From: Kitasatospora sp. CB01950
Lineage (GTDB): Bacteria > Actinomycetota > Actinomycetes > Streptomycetales > Streptomycetaceae
Assembly (NCBI RefSeq): GCF_001905465.1
Contig: NZ_LISX01000010.1
Span: forward strand, 1-64,000
DNA: 64,000 nucleotides
Direction: 5' to 3'
Notes under the pieces: generated by a model
Told to the model about the DNA's origin: nothing
The model's input: the letters and a program-made list of their open reading frames with translations, nothing else
Databases searched by the model: none
Program-made: the position numbers and the translations under genes
Part shown: positions 34,606-45,944 of the stretch, one piece after another
Numbering within the stretch: the first letter of the stretch is position 1
Layout: each line of letters starts with the position of its first letter

Positions 34606-35166
34606 ATGAGCGTTGCCGTTTCCGATCACTTCGGACCGTGGACGGTCGAAGACGTCCTGGCCCTGCCCGAGGACACCCGCCATCGGATCGAGCTGGTCGG
34701 GGGGGCTCTACTGATGAGCCCGAACCCCGGTGTCCCGCACCAGCGCACCAGCTCGCGGCTGTGGGCACTCCTGGACGCCGCGCTCACGGCCACCGGAGCG
34801 CCGTTCGAGGTGCTGGAGGCCGTCAACGTCCTCGTCCCGGACGGCCTGCTGATCCCCGACCTGGTCGTCGTCGACGCAGCTGCCGCCGCCGAGGCCGGTT
34901 CCGCCCTGCACGCGGACGACGTGCTGATCGCGATCGAGATCGCGTCCCCGTCCACCCGGGTCATCGACCGCAGGACGAAGCCCGGCCTGTACGCGGCAGC
35001 GGGCATCCCGCAGTACTGGCGCCTCGACCTCGCCCCCGCGCTGCGGCTCCACCTCGGGCGGCTGGAGCGCGGCGACTACGTCGATCGCACCGTCGAGCCC
35101 GGCGAGACCGTCACGCTCGGCGAACCGTTCCGGTTCGACCTCGATCCGGGTGTACTGCTGCGCTGA
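34606..35166 (+). CDS. Uma2-family (DUF820) putative restriction endonuclease-fold protein
   Basis: This 186-residue Uma2 domain belongs to the PD-(D/E)XK superfamily. It shows RIELVGGALLMSPNPGVPHQ, LIPDLVVVD (catalytic Asp), AIEIASPSTRVIDRRTKPGLYAAAGIPQYWRLD (Glu/Glu and Lys region) and a C-terminal GETVTLGEPFRFDLDPGVLL. The family is massively expanded in streptomycetes and its role is unproven. The ATG at 34606 is preceded by a purine-rich GGAAGGTGGGAAGG tract. It is adjacent to nothing that suggests a toxin-antitoxin pair. Confidence 0.85.
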   Translation: MSVAVSDHFGPWTVEDVLALPEDTRHRIELVGGALLMSPNPGVPHQRTSSRLWALLDAALTATGAPFEVLEAVNVLVPDGLLIPDLVVVDAAAAAEAGSALHADDVLIAIEIASPSTRVIDRRTKPGLYAAAGIPQYWRLDLAPALRLHLGRLERGDYVDRTVEPGETVTLGEPFRFDLDPGVLLR

Positions 35167-35182: not shown

Positions 35183-36067
35183 TCAGGCGAAGGCCTTCGG
35201 GGGTGGGGGTGGGGACTGGACGGCCTGGGTGTCGGGGACGGGGGTGGCGCCGGCGAGGAAGTCGGTGAGGTCGCGGGCGTGCAGGAGGCGGGCCTGGGCG
35301 GGGTCGGCGGCGAGGCGGCGGGTGAGGTCGGTGAGCGGGAGGGGGGTGTGGGCGGCGGCCAGGACGAGGTTGCCGAAGCGCTTGCCGCGCAGCACCGCGG
35401 GGTCGGCGATCAGGCAGACCTCGGGGAAGACGGCCAGCAGGGTCGCGGCCTGGGCGCGGGCGAAGGCGAGTTGGCCGCCGTCGGTGATGTTGGCGACGTA
35501 GCGGCCGGTGCCGGTGAGGGCCCGCGCGGCGAGCCGGGCGAATTCGACGGTGGCGCAGTGGGCGGGGACCCGGGCGCCGGCGAAGACGTCGGCGATCACC
35601 AGGTCGGTGGAGTCCTCGGGGGTGCGTTCCAGGACGGCGCGGGCGTCGCCGCCGCGGACCCGGATCTGCCAGCCGCGGTCGAGCGGCAGCTCGGTGCGGA
35701 CGAGTTCGGTGAGCGCGGTGTCGATCTCGGCGACCTGCTGCCGGGAGCGCGGCCGGGTGACGGCCGTGTAGCGGGCCAGGGTGAGGGCGCCGCCGCCGAG
35801 GTGGAGCACCGAGACGGGCTGCCGGGCGGGGGCGGCGAGGTCGATCAGGTGGCCGATCCGCCGCTGGTACTCGAAGCCGAGGTGGGTCGGGTCGGCGAGG
35901 TCGACGAGTGACTGCGGGGCGCCGTCGAGGACGAGCTGCCAGGCGTGCGGCCGGTCGCGGTCGGGGCGCAGTTCGGCGGTGCCGGAGGCGACCTTCGCAG
36001 TCAGCGGGCCGTCGGTGTGCACGCGGCCGGGGACGGTGGGGGCGGGGGTGGTACGTGAGCGGCCCAT
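35183..36067 (-). CDS. Spermidine synthase-like (PABS fold) methyltransferase-type protein
   Basis: This 294-residue protein has a Rossmann core of the polyamine biosynthesis (PABS) type: VSVLHLGGGALTLARY (SAM-like motif I), VAEID (acidic motif II) and DSTDLVIADVFAGARVPAHCATVEF (motif IV). Many actinomycete relatives are annotated as fused or stand-alone spermidine synthase-like proteins without shown activity. The usual catalytic Asp pattern of SpeE is not obvious, so enzyme identity is unsure. A short Pro-rich tail ends the protein. It is convergent with the Uma2 gene. Confidence 0.7.
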   Translation of the reverse strand: MGRSRTTPAPTVPGRVHTDGPLTAKVASGTAELRPDRDRPHAWQLVLDGAPQSLVDLADPTHLGFEYQRRIGHLIDLAAPARQPVSVLHLGGGALTLARYTAVTRPRSRQQVAEIDTALTELVRTELPLDRGWQIRVRGGDARAVLERTPEDSTDLVIADVFAGARVPAHCATVEFARLAARALTGTGRYVANITDGGQLAFARAQAATLLAVFPEVCLIADPAVLRGKRFGNLVLAAAHTPLPLTDLTRRLAADPAQARLLHARDLTDFLAGATPVPDTQAVQSPPPPPKAFA

Positions 36068-38095: not shown

Positions 38096-39652
38096 ATGGC
38101 AGCCACGCGGATCGGCGAGCCCCGTCCGGCGTACGTCCCCAACCAGGCGATGCGGGAACTGCGCGGCGACCTCTCACCGAGGGAGTTCGCCACGCTGGTC
38201 CGCCGCGCCGCCCGGGAGATCGGCGAGCACGTGTCGTGCGACGCGCGCTACATCGGCCGGGTGGAGTCCGGCGAGATCCGCTGCCCCAACTACGCCTACC
38301 AGCGAGTGTTCCGGCACATGTGGCCGACCAAGTCGATGACGGACCTCGGGTTCGCCCGCCGCAAGGCGGTCCCCCGTGCACCGAAGGCCGCGCCGAACAC
38401 CGCCCCGACCGCACCAACCGCACCAACCGCACCAACCGCACCAACGCACGCAGAACCGGCAAGGACAGGGACCGCAGAAACGGCCGTCGAGCAGTCGGCC
38501 GCCCGCCCCACCACGAGCACATCCACGCACCAACCCATCCATCCGGCCGCCCGGCCCGCCACCCCGGCGGGCCCGTCGGACCGGTCGCATCGGTCTGACG
38601 AGGAGAGCGACGACGTGCTTCGCCGTACGTTCCTGAACGGTGCCCCTGCTGCGGTGGCGGCCGCGCTCGGTGTGGATCGCCTGCCCGCCGCTTCACCCCC
38701 GTCCGCGGCCCCGCCGCTGCCCGCCAACCCGCTGGTCCCGGAGCGCCACCGGGTCGGCACCGCCGAGGTGCGCGGCGTCGAGGATGCGGTCCGCAACATC
38801 CGGCTGCTGGACGACGTGCACGGCGCGGACAACCTGTTCGAGCTGGCCGGCCAGTCGCTGCGCAGCGCCTACGTGCTGCTCAACGACGGCCAGTACAACG
38901 CCGCCACCGAGCGCCGCCTGCAGTGCGGCGCGGGCGAACTCGCCATCTCGGTCGGCTGGTTGGCGCACGACTCGAACCGGATGCTGGACGCCAGGTCGTT
39001 CTACTCGGAGGCGCTGGCGACGGCCCGGATGGCGCAGGACGCGGGCCTGGAGGCGCACGTGTTCAGCAACAGCTCCTTCCTGGCGCGGGAGGCCGGCCAC
39101 CCCCGGGAGGCGCTGCGGGCCGCCCAGGCCGGGCAGGCCGCGGCGGTGGGGCTGGGCTCGGACCGGCTGAAGTCGCTGCTGGCGCTGCGCGAGGCCAACG
39201 GCTGGGCCCTGCTCGGCGACCGGGGGGCCTGCCGGCAGGCGTTGAAGCGGGCGTACACGCTGTTCGACCGGGGGCCGCAGGACGCCGATCCGGAGTGGAT
39301 GTCCTTCTTCGGGGAGGCGGAGCTGGCCGGTCAGGAGGCGCAGTGCTGGTCGGCGCTCGGCGACTGGAAGCTGGCGAGCACCCGGGCCGAGCAGGCGGTG
39401 GAGCTCCAGTTGCCGCACTTCGTCCGCAACCGGGCACTGTACCTTGCCGAGTTGGCGCACGACCGGCTGGGCCGGGGCGATCTGGCGGGCGCGGCACTGC
39501 AGGGCTCGGAGGCGGTGGCGATGTTCGACCAGGTCCGTTCGGCGCGGATCCGCGGCATGCTGGCGCACACCGCGGACCGTCTGCGCGGGCACTCCTCCGT
39601 GGCGGAGGTGCGGGAGTTCCTGGAGGGCTACGACGGCACGGTCGCAGCCTGA
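38096..39652 (+). CDS. HTH and tetratricopeptide-repeat regulatory protein
   Basis: This 518-residue protein has an N-terminal Xre-like segment (LSPREFATLVRRAAREIGEHVSCDARYIGRVESGEIRCPNYAYQRVFRHMWP). A low-complexity linker with Ala-Pro-Thr repeats follows, then a short hydrophobic RRTFLNGAPAAVAAALG segment that resembles a vestigial Tat signal, and a ~300-residue TPR-type helical domain (from VRNIRLLDDVHGADNLFELAGQSL). Many such proteins occur in streptomycetes, some affecting development and antibiotics; the target here is unknown. The ATG at 38096 starts the conserved region. It is divergent from the small Gly/Pro protein gene. Confidence 0.75.
   Translation: MAATRIGEPRPAYVPNQAMRELRGDLSPREFATLVRRAAREIGEHVSCDARYIGRVESGEIRCPNYAYQRVFRHMWPTKSMTDLGFARRKAVPRAPKAAPNTAPTAPTAPTAPTAPTHAEPARTGTAETAVEQSAARPTTSTSTHQPIHPAARPATPAGPSDRSHRSDEESDDVLRRTFLNGAPAAVAAALGVDRLPAASPPSAAPPLPANPLVPERHRVGTAEVRGVEDAVRNIRLLDDVHGADNLFELAGQSLRSAYVLLNDGQYNAATERRLQCGAGELAISVGWLAHDSNRMLDARSFYSEALATARMAQDAGLEAHVFSNSSFLAREAGHPREALRAAQAGQAAAVGLGSDRLKSLLALREANGWALLGDRGACRQALKRAYTLFDRGPQDADPEWMSFFGEAELAGQEAQCWSALGDWKLASTRAEQAVELQLPHFVRNRALYLAELAHDRLGRGDLAGAALQGSEAVAMFDQVRSARIRGMLAHTADRLRGHSSVAEVREFLEGYDGTVAA
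38402..38446 (+). repeat. 9-bp tandem coding repeat (Ala-Pro-Thr)
   Basis: Four to five copies of GCACCAACC encode APT units in the linker of the HTH-TPR protein. The copy number is likely variable between strains. Confidence 0.85.
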
Positions 39653-40512: not shown

Positions 40513-41730
40513 ATGAACGTCTCGCACTTGGGGCAGGCTTCCCCTTCGCTGCGGCGGCTCTCCGAGCTGCGCGGTGCCGCGCCGCAGCGCAGTCTCGACG
40601 CCCGGGCCCTTGCCGCTCTCGCCGCCAATCCCGGATGCCGCCGCCGCGCGCTGCTGGACGCCGCGGGGGTGGACAAGACCGCGTTGGCCGACCGTCTGGG
40701 CCGGCCTGCGCCGTTCGGCCAGTCGCCGTTCGCGATCCGCCGCGGCCTGCAGTTCGAGTCCCGGTTGAAGCGGGACGGCTACGCGGTGCTGATGGAGCCG
40801 CTGCGCCGGCTGCTGGGGGTGCCGGAGGACGAGGTGGCCTCGTTGGCGGTGCCGGATCTGCTGCCGTCGCTGTCCCCGGCGATGCGCACGGAGCGGACGT
40901 CGGCGGCGCTGGCCGAGGCGGCCGCCGATCCGTCGGCGTGGACGCTGCTGGACCGTCCGATGCTGCGCCTGGAGGTGGCGGGCAGCCCGGCGTACCTGGA
41001 GCCGGACGCGCTGGTGGTGCACGGCGGCCGGTGCACCGTGGTGGAGATCAAGTCCTTTCCGGTGCTGGACGGGTCGGCCGATCCGGCGAAGGTCGGCGCG
41101 GCGGCCCGGCAGGCCGCGGTGTACGTGCTGGCGTTGCAGCAGGCGGCGGCCCGGGCGGCGGGGCGCGAGCCGTCCGCCGATCCGTACGCGGAGCAGGACC
41201 TGCCGGGTGCGCCGGAGTTGACGGTGCTGCTGGTCTGCCCGAAGGACTTCTCCAACCGCCCGGTCGCGATGCCGGTCGATGTGCGGCGCGAACTGTCCAC
41301 CACTCGGCGGCAGTTGTCCCGGATGACCAAGGTGGAGCAGTTGCTCGCGGCGCTGCCGGAGGGTATGACGTTCGACCTGGCGCGGGACGACTCGGGCGCG
41401 CCGACCCGTCCGGTCGAGGAGTTGACGCGGGCGGTGGAGGCGGTGCCGGCGGCGTACGGTCCGGAGTGCATCTCGACCTGCGAGCTGGGGTTCCACTGCC
41501 GGGCGCAGGCCCGGTGTGCGGGCGCGGTGGAGCAATTGGGTCGCGGGGTGCGCGGGGAGCTGGGTTCGCTGCGCACGGTGGAGGCGGCGTTGGCGGCGGC
41601 CGGGCGTGGCGCCGAGCCGGGGGTGGAGCCGGCGCTGCTGGCGGAGTTGGGCCTGGACGAGGCGTCCGAGCGGTTGGCGTACGCGGCGCGGCTGCGGGCG
41701 GAGGCGTTGGCGGCCGGGGGCGTGCGGTGA
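40513..41730 (+). CDS. RecB/Cas4-like PD-(D/E)XK nuclease with Cys cluster
   Basis: This 405-residue protein has the RecB-family nuclease motifs: D165 in LEPDALVV, E178-x-K180 in VVEIKSF, and Q200-xxx-Y204 in RQAAVYVLAL. A Cys at 42 and four Cys at 319, 323, 329 and 335 (C-x3-C-x5-C-x5-C) could bind an Fe-S cluster, as in Cas4, AddB and Dna2. There, one Cys lies before the nuclease core and three after it. The inferred role is nuclease in a DNA-end processing complex. It is first gene of a three-gene cassette; its TGA overlaps the GTG of the next gene. No CRISPR is present, so it is not an ordinary Cas4. Confidence 0.65.
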   Translation: MNVSHLGQASPSLRRLSELRGAAPQRSLDARALAALAANPGCRRRALLDAAGVDKTALADRLGRPAPFGQSPFAIRRGLQFESRLKRDGYAVLMEPLRRLLGVPEDEVASLAVPDLLPSLSPAMRTERTSAALAEAAADPSAWTLLDRPMLRLEVAGSPAYLEPDALVVHGGRCTVVEIKSFPVLDGSADPAKVGAAARQAAVYVLALQQAAARAAGREPSADPYAEQDLPGAPELTVLLVCPKDFSNRPVAMPVDVRRELSTTRRQLSRMTKVEQLLAALPEGMTFDLARDDSGAPTRPVEELTRAVEAVPAAYGPECISTCELGFHCRAQARCAGAVEQLGRGVRGELGSLRTVEAALAAAGRGAEPGVEPALLAELGLDEASERLAYAARLRAEALAAGGVR

Positions 41731-43325
41731 GTCTGTTGTCCACGTTGGCGCGGCTGGAGGCGGTGCGCGGTCAGCGGGCGGAGCCGCTGGCGACGGTGCG
41801 GCACCGTCATCTGTCGGACCGCCCGATGGTGCTGGTGCCGTTGGCGGCGGCGGGTGAGGCGGGTGCGCCGCTGGCGGTGCTGCTGGGCACGGACCGGGAC
41901 GCGCCGCGGCTGCATCTGGTGCCGCAGCCGCTGAACCGTACGCAGCGTTCGGAGTTCCTGGCGGCGATGGCGGCGGACGTGGTGCCGTACCTGGAGTCGT
42001 TCGGCGAGCAGGTGGAGCTGCTGGAGGGTTCGGAGAAGGACCCGGTGAGCGGCGAGAAGCTGCCGGTGGTGCGGGAGTTGTGCGCGGACGCGCCGCAGTT
42101 GGTGGTGCCGAACGCGGCGGGGGTGGCGCATCTGGCGCTGCTGGGCCGTTCGACCCGGTTCCGTCGTACGGCGGAGGATCCGGATCCGGGCGAGTACCCG
42201 GCGCCGACGCAGGTGCCGCTGCTGGGGCGGTGGTTGACGCATCTGACGGACCGGGCGCAGGTGCCGGGTTCGTCGATGCTGCTGTCGATGACGGGTCTGT
42301 TGGCGCGGCACTGGGCGACCGGGCAGTCGAACCTGGAGGACCAGCATCTGGCGGCCCGGATGGCCTGGCATCTGTCGCCGTCGGGTCTGGAGCCGCCGGC
42401 GACGGGGGCGGTGGCGGCGGAGTGGGTGGAGTCGGCGCGCGACGCGGAGGGCCTGCTGGTGCATCCGCCGGCCGGTCCGTCGACGGATCCGAAGTTCGAC
42501 GAGCGGGTGCTGGCACCGGCGATCCTGCGGTACGACGCGGCGGTCGCGGTGCGGGTGCGGGCCGAGGGCTCGCGGGACGCGGCGGAGTCGGAGCGGGCGG
42601 CGGGGCTGGTCGAGCGGGCGCGGGCGGAGTTGGCCCGGGTGCTGCTGGCGGCGGCGCTGCCGACCTGGCACGACGTGTGGCACGGCCTGGAGCTGCTGCG
42701 CGAGCTGCCGCCGGCGGATCATCTGCCGGACCGCTGGGAGGGCGACCGCTGGTCGTTCACCATGCACCGGGACCGGGTGGCGGCGGGCGAGCCGCCGCAG
42801 CCGCGCCGGGACGACGCGGTGACGGCGGCCCGCAAGCTGGCGCAGCGCGAGCGGGAGCAGGCGAAGCTGGAGATCCAGGAGGCGCTGGACGACCCGTTGG
42901 CGATGGCGGAGCGCCGTTTGGCGGGCGAGGCGTTCGCCGGCGAGGTGGTGGACGTGGTGCCGGAGTGGTCGGCGGGCCGTTCGCCGAAGCCGCGTCCGCT
43001 GCTGGTGGTGCGGACGGGCGACCGTCCGCACGCGGATCCGGGCCGGGAGGTGTACCGGGCGCACGCGGAGCCGGCGCAGCGGGCGGAGATCGTGTCGGCG
43101 GAGTCGGGCGAGGTGGTGGTGCGGCTGCTGTCGGGGATGGGGCGGCGGAAGGACCCGGAGCCGGGCAGTGTGCCGGAGGTGGGCAGCCGGGTGGTGTTCA
43201 CGCTGTTCGAGTTGGCGCCGCGCCAGTCGGCGCCGTTGCCGGAGCCGGCGGACACTCCGTGGACGCACGGCGGCCCGCCGGTGGTCGGCGAGGATTCACC
43301 GGCCGGTGCGGACGAGTGGGAATGA
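41727..43325 (+). CDS. Large protein of unknown function in nuclease-helicase cassette
   Basis: This 532-residue protein has no motif I recognise, no Walker A, signal peptide or membrane helix. The N-terminal half is rich in hydrophobic strands and helices (LARLEAVRGQRAEPLATVRHRHL, FGEQVELLEGSEKDPVSGEKLPVVREL). The centre includes a W-rich LARHWATGQSNLEDQHLAARMAWHL segment. A charged helix (ARKLAQREREQAKLEIQEALDDPLAMAERRLAGEAF) precedes a beta-rich C-terminal domain (VVRLLSGMGRR...VVFTLFE) that could be an OB- or SH3-like fold. The GTG overlaps the nuclease stop (GTGA), and the next gene follows within 10 bases. It probably bridges the nuclease and helicase. Confidence 0.6.
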   Translation: MSLLSTLARLEAVRGQRAEPLATVRHRHLSDRPMVLVPLAAAGEAGAPLAVLLGTDRDAPRLHLVPQPLNRTQRSEFLAAMAADVVPYLESFGEQVELLEGSEKDPVSGEKLPVVRELCADAPQLVVPNAAGVAHLALLGRSTRFRRTAEDPDPGEYPAPTQVPLLGRWLTHLTDRAQVPGSSMLLSMTGLLARHWATGQSNLEDQHLAARMAWHLSPSGLEPPATGAVAAEWVESARDAEGLLVHPPAGPSTDPKFDERVLAPAILRYDAAVAVRVRAEGSRDAAESERAAGLVERARAELARVLLAAALPTWHDVWHGLELLRELPPADHLPDRWEGDRWSFTMHRDRVAAGEPPQPRRDDAVTAARKLAQREREQAKLEIQEALDDPLAMAERRLAGEAFAGEVVDVVPEWSAGRSPKPRPLLVVRTGDRPHADPGREVYRAHAEPAQRAEIVSAESGEVVVRLLSGMGRRKDPEPGSVPEVGSRVVFTLFELAPRQSAPLPEPADTPWTHGGPPVVGEDSPAGADEWE

Positions 43326-43332
43326 CGTGCGG

Positions 43333-44724
43333 ATGAGTTTCTCTGGAGAGCTGGTGCCCAACCCCCTGGACGCTGCTGGCGCGTTGCCGCCGGGCGAGGC
43401 GGCGGACCGGGCCGTGGCGGGGATCCTGGACGCGGTGGTGCGGCCGCGTCCGGGTGCGCCGCGCGGGGTGGTGGTGGATTCGCCGCCGGGCGCGGGCAAG
43501 TCGACGCTGGTGGTGCGGGCGGCCCGGGAGCTGGTGGATGCGGGCGAGCGGCTGATGATCGTCGCGCAGACCAACAGCCAGGTGGACGACCTGGTGGACC
43601 GGTTGGCGTCGAAGGCCCCGGAGATGTCGATCGGCCGGCTGCACGCGAGCGATGCGAAGCCGGCGCCGGAGGCGTTGCGGCATGCGAACGTCACGGCGAA
43701 GGACAAGGTCGCGGACCTGCTGGAGCAGGACGTGGTGATCTCCACGGCGGCGAAGTGGCAGTGGGTGAAGGCCGAGCAGCCGTGGCGGCAGGCGATCGTC
43801 GACGAGGCGTACCAGATGCGGTCGGACGCGCTGCTGGCGGTGGCCCGGCTGTTCGAGCGGGCGCTGTTCGTGGGTGATCCGGGGCAGTTGGACCCGTTCA
43901 CGGTGGTGGGCACGGACCAGTGGGCGGGCCTGTCGTACGACCCGTCGAGTTCGGCGGTGGTGACGCTGCTGGCGCACAATCCGGCGATCCGGCCGCACCG
44001 GTTGCCGGTGTCGTGGCGGCTGCCGGCGTCGGCGGCGCCGTTGATCTCCTCGGCGTTCTACCCGTACACGCCGTTCCGTTCGGGCACCGGCCCGGGTGAG
44101 CGGACGCTGCGTCCGGGGGTGCGGGCGGACGGTTCGGCGGTGGACACGGCGATCGACGAGGCGGCGGAGAGCGGTTGGGCGTTGCTGGAGCTGCCGGCCC
44201 GGCACACGGTGCGGACGGACGCGCAGGCGGTGGCGGCGGTGGCGCAGACGGTGCGGCGGTTGCTGGACCGGGAGTTGACGGCGGTCTCGGAGCAGGGTTC
44301 GGCGCCGTTGACGGCGGGCCGGGTGGCGGTGGGGACGGCGCACCGGGACCAGGCGGCGGCGGTGCGGGCGGAGCTGGCGCGGCTGGGGGTGCCGGTGGAT
44401 CCGGCGCTGGGCGAGGCGGTGACGGTGGACACCGCGAACCGCTTGCAGGGCCGGGAGTACGACGTGACGGTGGTGCTGCATCCGTTGTCGGGGCGTCCGG
44501 ATGCGACGGCGTTCCATCTGGAGACGGGCCGGCTGTGCGTGCTGGCGTCGCGGCACCGGCATGCGTGCATCGTGGTGGCGCGGGCGGGCATCGCGGAGCT
44601 GTTGGACGAGCATCCGTCGACGGAGCCGGTGCAGCTGGGGGTGGCGGTGAAGTTCCCGGACGGTTGGGAGGCGAACCACGCGGTGCTGGCGCGCCTGTCG
44701 GAGCACCGGGTGCGCCTGTCCTGA
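43333..44724 (+). CDS. SF1 (Upf1/Dna2-like) helicase/ATPase
   Basis: This 463-residue P-loop NTPase has Walker A SPPGAGKST (K56), motif Ia IVAQTNSQVDDLVDRLA and Walker B IVDEAYQM (D157-E158). Motif III is LFVGDPGQLDP, motif V is VTVDTANRLQGREYDVTVVL and motif VI is LASRHRHACIVVAR. These mark an SF1B helicase close to the Upf1/Dna2 group rather than UvrD/RecB. The usual accessory 1B/1C domains appear reduced. ATG 43333 or GTG 43327 is the start, 1-7 bases after the preceding stop. Together with the upstream RecB-like nuclease it resembles a Dna2 split over separate chains. Confidence 0.7.
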   Translation: MSFSGELVPNPLDAAGALPPGEAADRAVAGILDAVVRPRPGAPRGVVVDSPPGAGKSTLVVRAARELVDAGERLMIVAQTNSQVDDLVDRLASKAPEMSIGRLHASDAKPAPEALRHANVTAKDKVADLLEQDVVISTAAKWQWVKAEQPWRQAIVDEAYQMRSDALLAVARLFERALFVGDPGQLDPFTVVGTDQWAGLSYDPSSSAVVTLLAHNPAIRPHRLPVSWRLPASAAPLISSAFYPYTPFRSGTGPGERTLRPGVRADGSAVDTAIDEAAESGWALLELPARHTVRTDAQAVAAVAQTVRRLLDRELTAVSEQGSAPLTAGRVAVGTAHRDQAAAVRAELARLGVPVDPALGEAVTVDTANRLQGREYDVTVVLHPLSGRPDATAFHLETGRLCVLASRHRHACIVVARAGIAELLDEHPSTEPVQLGVAVKFPDGWEANHAVLARLSEHRVRLS

Positions 44725-44864
44725 TGCGCCCCGGCGCGTGTCGGTCGGCGTGCGCCGGTGGCAGGGAATAGCAGCCGGGGGCGCACCGTTCCGCTACCTG
44801 CGGTCGGCGCGCGACAATGGACGGCGGCCGTCTTCCCCTTCACCACCCCCGGAGGTGCCCCGCC

Positions 44865-45272
44865 ATGCCCGACTCGCACCCGCAGGCGTCCGACCAGAGC
44901 GGTGCGCCGTCTCCGGCTGCCGTACCGGCCGTGCCGGGGCCTGGCGATCGGGGGCGCCGGATCCGCCCGGCCCAGTTGATCTTCGAACCGGAGGGCACGG
45001 AGCCCGAGCCGGAGCGTTTCTTCGACCTGGAGTCGATCGCCGACCCGTCTCGACTGCTGTCGCGTTCCACCGAGTTGGCGTTGGCGTTCCGCGCCGCGGC
45101 GGAGCGGGCCACGGACTTCCAGGCGATCGCGGCGGCCCAGCTCGCCGATCCGCGCCGCTTCGACGCGCTGTCGGCCGAGCAGATCGCCGAGCGCGCCGAA
45201 TGGACGCCCGACTACGCGCTGAAGATGGTCGAGTACGGCCGTACGCTGCAGCGTCGCCTTCCCGAGGAGTAG
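44865..45272 (+). CDS. Hypothetical conserved protein
   Basis: This 135-residue protein is unrecognised. An N-terminal ~35-residue Pro/Ala/Ser tail precedes RIRPAQLIFEPEGTEPEPERFFDLESIADPSRLLSRSTELALAFRAAAERATDFQAIAAAQLADPRRFDALSAEQIAERAEWTPDYALKMVEYGR. This is an acidic, helical domain with no catalytic signature. GGAGG lies nine bases before the ATG. It is 140 bases after the helicase in the same direction and may belong to the cassette, but it is not overlapping. Confidence 0.6.
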   Translation: MPDSHPQASDQSGAPSPAAVPAVPGPGDRGRRIRPAQLIFEPEGTEPEPERFFDLESIADPSRLLSRSTELALAFRAAAERATDFQAIAAAQLADPRRFDALSAEQIAERAEWTPDYALKMVEYGRTLQRRLPEE

Positions 45273-45398
45273 GCGGCACCCGGGGCCCACCAGGCCGCTG
45301 GCATATGCGGCGGGCGATGGTACGCCCTGACCGCCGCCGGTGTCCGGTGAACGCGGGTTTCGCCGCGGGCCCGCGCGTGGCCGGTCCACGCTGGGCGG

Positions 45399-45944
45399 GT
45401 GGACATCTGGACCTATCAGGCCGTCGAGTACGTCAGCGTCGCCGGAGAGGCGTGGCTGGCCTCCGCCAGCGAGTACCCGAGCAGCATGCGCGCACTGTGG
45501 GAGGCCCGTCCGTGGGCGCCCGCCGTCCTCCCGTGCGGCCGGGTCTTCGACGTGATCAGCATGCCCGCGGTGTTCGGCCGCCGGGTGCTCGACGAGCTGT
45601 GGGCGTCCGGCCCGGGCTGCGGCCCGGTGGCGGCCTTCCGCGGCCGCACCCTGCTGTTCGTGCAGCCCGGCACGGCGGCCCGGCTGCGCACTCTGCTGGC
45701 CTGGGAGGAGTGGGCGCGGGACGTCCCGCCGCTGCTCTGCCACGGCATCGGCGACGCGGTGACCGTCCCCCCGGTCCAGCGGGCCGTGGACTCCGCCGAC
45801 ACCGCCGGCGGCCGCTGGATCGTCGCCCCGGACACCCGCGAGCCCTGGCTGCCGGGCGCGTCCGTGATCCTCTGGGCCGCCGTCCGCGCCGCCCGCGCCC
45901 GGGCCCCGCACGAGTCCGGCGACCTGCTGCCGAACCCCTGCTGA
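45399..45944 (+). CDS. Primase/polymerase-like (Prim-Pol) domain protein, probably degenerate
   Basis: This 181-residue protein resembles the short streptomycete proteins annotated as bifunctional DNA primase/polymerase. Features are an N-terminal helix with WLASASEYPSSMRALWEARPWAPAVLPCGRVFDVISMP, a strand pair RGRTLLFVQPGTAARL, GDAVTVPP, and a C-terminal GRWIVAPDTREPWLPGASVILWAAV. The paired acidic catalytic residues of active Prim-Pol enzymes are not obvious, so it may be non-catalytic. The GTG start has no clear Shine-Dalgarno sequence. It ends ~90 bases before tRNA-Lys. Confidence 0.5.
   Translation: MDIWTYQAVEYVSVAGEAWLASASEYPSSMRALWEARPWAPAVLPCGRVFDVISMPAVFGRRVLDELWASGPGCGPVAAFRGRTLLFVQPGTAARLRTLLAWEEWARDVPPLLCHGIGDAVTVPPVQRAVDSADTAGGRWIVAPDTREPWLPGASVILWAAVRAARARAPHESGDLLPNPC

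Follow-up and report, generated by a model that had tools for sequence, protein, structure and literature searches.

Introduction

The AddAB, AdnAB and RecBCD complexes combine a helicase with a RecB-family nuclease acting at DNA ends, the helicase being of the SF1A (UvrD-like) type and fused to the nuclease. In eukaryotic Dna2, a single polypeptide runs from a Cas4/RecB-type PD-(D/E)XK nuclease, whose four cysteines are divided between its N-terminal (one) and its C-terminal side (three), through a stalk with a beta-barrel to an SF1B helicase core. In both Upf1 and Dna2, stalk and beta-barrel (domain 1B) stand before the Walker A motif, and 5'-3' polarity is expected for SF1B helicases. Cas4, solo-Cas4 and the Argonaute-associated Cas4 enzyme ACE1 represent the corresponding nuclease fold and cysteine arrangement.

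Here, a three-gene cassette is described from the window, i.e., the 64,000-nucleotide stretch of Kitasatospora sp. CB01950 DNA analysed, encoding a predicted nuclease (NUC), a middle protein (MID) and a helicase (HEL). Its gene order equals the N-to-C domain order of Dna2, the cysteine pattern of Dna2 (for a predicted cluster) is shared by NUC and its SF1B core by HEL, both proteins match Dna2 structures, and the MID model has a stalk as well as a beta-barrel, albeit with weak fold match to Upf1 and Dna2. Unlike Dna2, however, the cassette and its relatives consist of three open reading frames, are bacterial, show very low identity to Dna2 and include in MID an extra N-terminal domain of no known fold. 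From AddAB, AdnAB and RecBCD the cassette is distinguished by its separate SF1B helicase, whereas NUC differs from Cas4 in being larger, in matching no Cas4 family and in being tied to MID and HEL, with no cas gene among the scanned window neighbours. Accordingly delimited, the cassette is not a Dna2, AddAB or Cas4 as defined, and it probably works like Dna2. The gene set is present in nearly all genomes of the Streptomyces family, while two of its three proteins lack a curated family and its role is unassigned. In our preferred reading, to which we give a probability of about 60%, NUC, MID and HEL form one obligate three-protein Dna2-like nuclease-helicase, with a core version serving genome maintenance and an accessory version serving DNA degradation in defence.

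Architecture of the cassette

The initial annotation had described three tightly coupled genes, and all were found at the expected positions (Table 1), with NUC and MID overlapping in a GTGA at 41727-41730 and MID and HEL spaced by 7 bases, a gap that an in-frame GTG at 43327 would cut to 1 base. Likewise, all residues listed at that stage are present, namely D165, E178-I-K180, Q200/Y204, C42 and C319/C323/C329/C335 in NUC as well as K56, D157-E158, GDPGQLD and SRHRH in HEL. Gene order and strand were identical in all 20 loci of a first regional set and constant in 80 named genome loci, contig ends excepted. As order and strand are kept in 119 loci, of which 100 show a NUC-MID overlap of 4 or 10 nt and 96 an overlapping or abutting MID-HEL pair, the arrangement is far from chance.

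Table 1. Coordinates of the cassette, its features and related loci. Positions without locus prefix refer to the window.
Feature	Position	Strand	Remark
NUC	40513-41730	+	405 aa ORF
MID	41727-43325	+	532 aa ORF
HEL	43333-44724	+	463 aa ORF
NUC C42, first of four predicted Fe-S cysteines	40636-40638	+	131/135
NUC catalytic core E163-x-D165 ... E178-x-K180	40999-41052	+	conservation in 135 sequences
NUC C319, C323, C329, other predicted Fe-S cysteines	41467-41499	+	135/135 each
MID long helices, residues 255-325, predicted stalk	42489-42701	+	AlphaFold model
MID C-terminal beta-barrel, residues 402-492	42930-43202	+	AlphaFold model
HEL Walker A PGAGKS, K56	43486-43503	+	K56 125/125
HEL motif II D157-E158	43801-43806	+	125/125
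Uma2-family putative nuclease gene	34606-35166		PADLOC candidate family PDC-S03
Gene syntenic with core cassette	35183-36067		no Pfam match; weak PADLOC mad2 match
Gene syntenic with core cassette	38096-39652		no Pfam match
Small gene and Prim-Pol gene	44817-45944		3' of cassette
MoxR AAA - VWA - small ORF - MID homologue - HEL homologue	L033:4032-9134		plasmid
MoxR AAA - VWA - small ORF - MID homologue - HEL homologue	L032:4111-9230		plasmid
MoxR AAA - VWA - small ORF - MID homologue - HEL homologue	L035:3991-9131		plasmid
Accessory cassette with SbcCD and Wadjet	L155 (G563 contig 1, 8001-28000)		
Decayed accessory copy	L013:8046-15783		
SbcD/SbcC fragments beside accessory cassette	L031:208-2251		Streptomyces plasmid

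The three proteins

The assignment of NUC as a PD-(D/E)XK nuclease of the RecB/Cas4/Dna2 type is upheld by its predicted structure (AlphaFold, mean pLDDT 90.8), for which Foldseek retrieved from the PDB MGME1 (E 4.7e-4), RecE, ACE1 (Cas4 family), Dna2, Cas4 SSO0001 and Exo5, with only two E-values below 0.001 and the AdnAB structure as a weak fold match, and by a Cas4/Dna2-type cysteine pattern in the alignment. Among 135 NUC sequences, E163, D165, Q200, C319, C323 and C329 are invariant, and E178 and K180 are each kept in 132. From the C-x3-C-x5-C-x5-C pattern initially proposed together with C42, the last position did not stand: C335 is a cysteine in only 31 of the 135 sequences, so that the predicted cluster set is C42 plus C319, C323 and C329. 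NUC has no match in Pfam, PADLOC or NCBIfam, and a search of viral contigs gave no relatives.

Judged by its sequence, HEL is an SF1B helicase of the Upf1/IGHMBP2/Dna2 type with intact motifs, as previously annotated, showing Pfam matches to AAA_11 and AAA_12, profile matches to IGHMBP2, Dna2 and UPF1 at E-values of about 1e-12 to 1e-13, and motif residues unbroken in 124-125 of 125 sequences. Since its Walker A motif begins near residue 52, the sequence ahead of it in HEL is too short to contain the stalk and beta-barrel found at this place in Upf1 and Dna2. With PADLOC 2.0.0, no named anti-phage system was obtained, as NUC and MID are unmatched and HEL gives partial helicase matches only. 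The best matches of HEL in the defence library include the SF1B helicase domains of Mokosh (MkoA/MkoC), PLuB and Hhe; however, HEL covers only part of these large proteins and stays far below the NCBIfam cut-offs, and neither NUC nor MID has a counterpart there.

MID, whose closest named relative is that of K. griseola (92% identity), is without match in Pfam and PADLOC and gives one non-significant match in NCBIfam. Its AlphaFold model, of high confidence (pLDDT 91.4, pTM 0.89), opens at the N-terminus with an alpha/beta domain, continues in long and then further helices, and closes with a beta-barrel at the C-terminus. Foldseek placed Upf1 at ranks 9 and 14 and Dna2 at rank 18 of 350,542 chains, but these matches are weak (E 0.03-0.05, none below 0.001) and mixed with barrels of ATP synthases. 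On the basis of architecture and gene order, we propose that the modelled MID barrel would be the in-trans counterpart of SF1B domain 1B and that the MID helices would represent the stalk. The split Dna2-like complex suggested in the initial annotation is favoured by the modelled stalk and barrel and by the Dna2-like gene order, but the fold match itself is weak. Foldseek of MID against viral proteins returned nothing significant, and no MID was found in the phage records searched. Two candidate features of MID were discarded: a conserved C-terminal tryptophan tail, considered as a docking motif in a 20-sequence alignment, did not persist when 126 sequences were compared, and loci of one genus thought to carry an in-frame TGA in MID show no internal stop once read.

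Relatives of the MID-HEL pair occur on plasmids of Rhodococcus, Mycobacterium and Xylanimonas, where genes for MoxR, VWA and a small protein are followed by a homologue of MID (hhalign probability 93%, E 3e-7) and, directly after it, a relative of HEL with about 33% identity, and where no nuclease is recognised. Consequently, the pairing of MID and HEL is wider than the three-gene set, and a nuclease may not be a constant partner of MID-HEL. A profile of the MoxR-type MID homologue found none in 297 genomes of the phylum, a result carrying little weight as it had no positive control. One could go further and treat MID-HEL by itself as the working unit, a helicase that remodels nucleic acids, with NUC as an optional partner; also fitting this, the NUC active site is altered (E178A and K180R) in the accessory copy L013, though its HEL is frameshifted as well. 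Against this quite unlikely alternative, the NUC catalytic residues E178 and K180 are intact nearly throughout the family and NUC overlaps MID.

Distribution and neighbourhood of the core copy

MID was detected in 293 of 299 Streptomycetaceae genomes, covering all 17 genera; of 397 genomes drawn from the whole phylum, just 14 carry it. Of the six Streptomycetaceae genomes in which MID is missing, one has a completeness of 71%, and in another (G609) NUC and HEL are located at the ends of contigs, while the remaining four (G474, G532, G614 and G644, 96-100% complete) lack orthologues of MID, NUC and HEL alike. This joint presence and joint loss bears out the strict co-occurrence expected for a common function of the three genes. 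A point against the three-part unit is genome G263 from another family, in which all three genes are kept and HEL lies about 36 kb away from MID-NUC.

The cassette found in the window, hereafter core copy, is usually present once per genome and has constant flanks across the family, in the order two unnamed genes, histidine phosphatase, cassette, small gene and Prim-Pol (primase/polymerase N-terminal) protein. The latter two are found behind the cassette at almost every core locus, and a functional tie to it is possible. Distribution and neighbours agree with the earlier remark that the window copy may be a conserved streptomycete housekeeping locus. Moreover, in line with the initial annotation, CRISPR, RecBCD and AddAB genes are absent among the window neighbours scanned, and around the core copy PADLOC gave only the candidate Uma2 family and the weak mad2 match listed in Table 1. 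In the same genome, two large open frames (1097 and 1254 aa), both with PDDEXK_1 domains, lie next to each other; they are probably AdnAB. In view of this separate AdnAB-like pair, breaks are unlikely to be resected mainly by the core cassette.

The accessory branch

Besides the core copy, an accessory version exists at about 43% identity with an extra gene of about 280 codons directly upstream, which is absent from core loci. This fourth gene was found in 25 of the 299 Streptomycetaceae genomes (8%), and accessory cassettes also occur on two plasmids. The comparison covered 27 loci with all four genes (25 genomic and 2 plasmid). In 13 of these, SbcD and SbcC are encoded divergently and immediately beside the fourth gene, on several branches of the tree; in the genomes tested, this SbcD is present in addition to a separate housekeeping SbcD. 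Nine loci have Wadjet genes nearby (type I, II or III), including two plasmids with a complete JetABCD directly downstream of the accessory HEL. Six loci have a pPIWI-RE system in the divergent position of SbcCD, which recalls the Argonaute link of ACE1, whereas two carry type I-E cas3/cse1 and one GmrSD. SbcCD and Wadjet are separate genes with their own families, and some accessory cassettes lack them. Known defence genes (Wadjet, pPIWI-RE, type I-E CRISPR or GmrSD) thus stand beside 18 of 27 accessory loci, while among 91 distinct core loci a single one has such neighbours (Fisher p about 1e-13). This comparison is biased by search queries taken from accessory loci, and with several pPIWI-RE loci being near-identical, the p-value is overstated. 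With the same reservation about the queries, guilt by association can be invoked for the accessory branch only, which is both defence-adjacent and patchily distributed.

This association could be explained by passive clustering in variable islands, as such regions gather many unrelated genes and the partners differ between clades. In contrast, SbcCD always takes the same divergent position by the fourth gene in the 13 loci, is a second copy in the genomes tested, and is replaced by pPIWI-RE at exactly this position in six others, rendering mere clustering rather improbable. The anti-phage role considered in the initial annotation accordingly finds a basis in the accessory sister loci, but not in the window copy with its ordinary neighbours.

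In the HEL tree, all core copies form one clade (SH-aLRT 100), with the SbcCD-linked and the pPIWI-RE/CRISPR lineages outside. When rooted on the plasmid helicases, which form a long outgroup branch, the core is nested among accessory forms, and this sequence-based topology suggests that the core copy is a domesticated mobile module. The nesting, together with nearest relatives residing in defence islands, would also be compatible with the core copy itself being a defence against phages or plasmids that became fixed in the family, instead of a repair enzyme. We consider this unlikely, as the core is nearly universal in the family, usually single-copy and constantly flanked by non-defence genes such as those for the histidine phosphatase and the Prim-Pol protein, PADLOC matches nearby are weak or candidate only, the fourth gene is missing, and the root rests on the long outgroup branch.

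Streptomycetaceae are known for linear chromosomes, and the cassette is largely restricted to this family; maintenance of linear replicons or telomeres by the core copy is therefore another conceivable role. In genome G563, with a chromosome represented by a single contig of 8.87 Mb, the accessory cassette of L155 is situated 18 kb from the chromosome end, and SbcCD acts on DNA termini (PMC12624138). However, core copies are away from the ends, for example that of G563 at 3.28 Mb, and relatives exist in other families, so that a telomeric function appears decidedly doubtful.

Proposed mechanism and relation to described systems

Returning to the three-protein Dna2-like reading, HEL would translocate on single-stranded DNA, presumably in the 5'-3' direction. 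MID would bridge HEL and NUC in the putative complex and supply the stalk and beta-barrel held in cis by Dna2 and Upf1, while NUC with its predicted 4Fe-4S cluster would trim the unwound or displaced strand. In Streptomycetaceae, the core copy would be a vertically inherited genome-maintenance enzyme that acts at the ends or flaps of DNA, alongside the AdnAB-like pair. Accessory cassettes carry the fourth gene and often an SbcCD of their own, and they probably serve defence loci as the module that degrades DNA: SbcCD or the adjoining system may open foreign DNA, which the accessory machine then would degrade. More tentatively, at somewhat less than an even chance, the three-subunit split Dna2 could be a reusable DNA-degrading module serving SbcCD-Wadjet, pPIWI-RE and type I-E CRISPR, domesticated once to serve genome maintenance as part of the Streptomycetaceae core.

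If these assumptions hold, the cassette would be a bacterial counterpart of Dna2 and a second end-processing machine of Streptomyces beside AdnAB, and the accessory form with its dedicated SbcCD an undescribed defence module. Cooperation of Mre11-Rad50-like and Dna2-like complexes in the latter would then be comparable to eukaryotic end resection.

As far as the tools show, the three-gene set is undescribed, in agreement with the initial annotation, which knew of no system of this composition. No curated family describing the set was found, and term searches of the open literature, with most subscription papers and all preprints outside their scope, gave no description of it. By such searches it is also absent from papers on the Streptomyces core (PMC4255298), Actinobacteria defence (PMC10482375) and pPIWI-RE (PMC3702460), as well as from a phylogenomic study of Cas4 (PMC5704561), the main text of which mentions neither Streptomyces nor Actinobacteria.

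Two individual accessory loci deserve mention. The decayed copy L013 is followed by JetA2/JetB2 of a type II Wadjet system. On the Streptomyces plasmid of L031, SbcD and SbcC are fragmented beside an accessory cassette that is intact, as is the downstream Wadjet operon.
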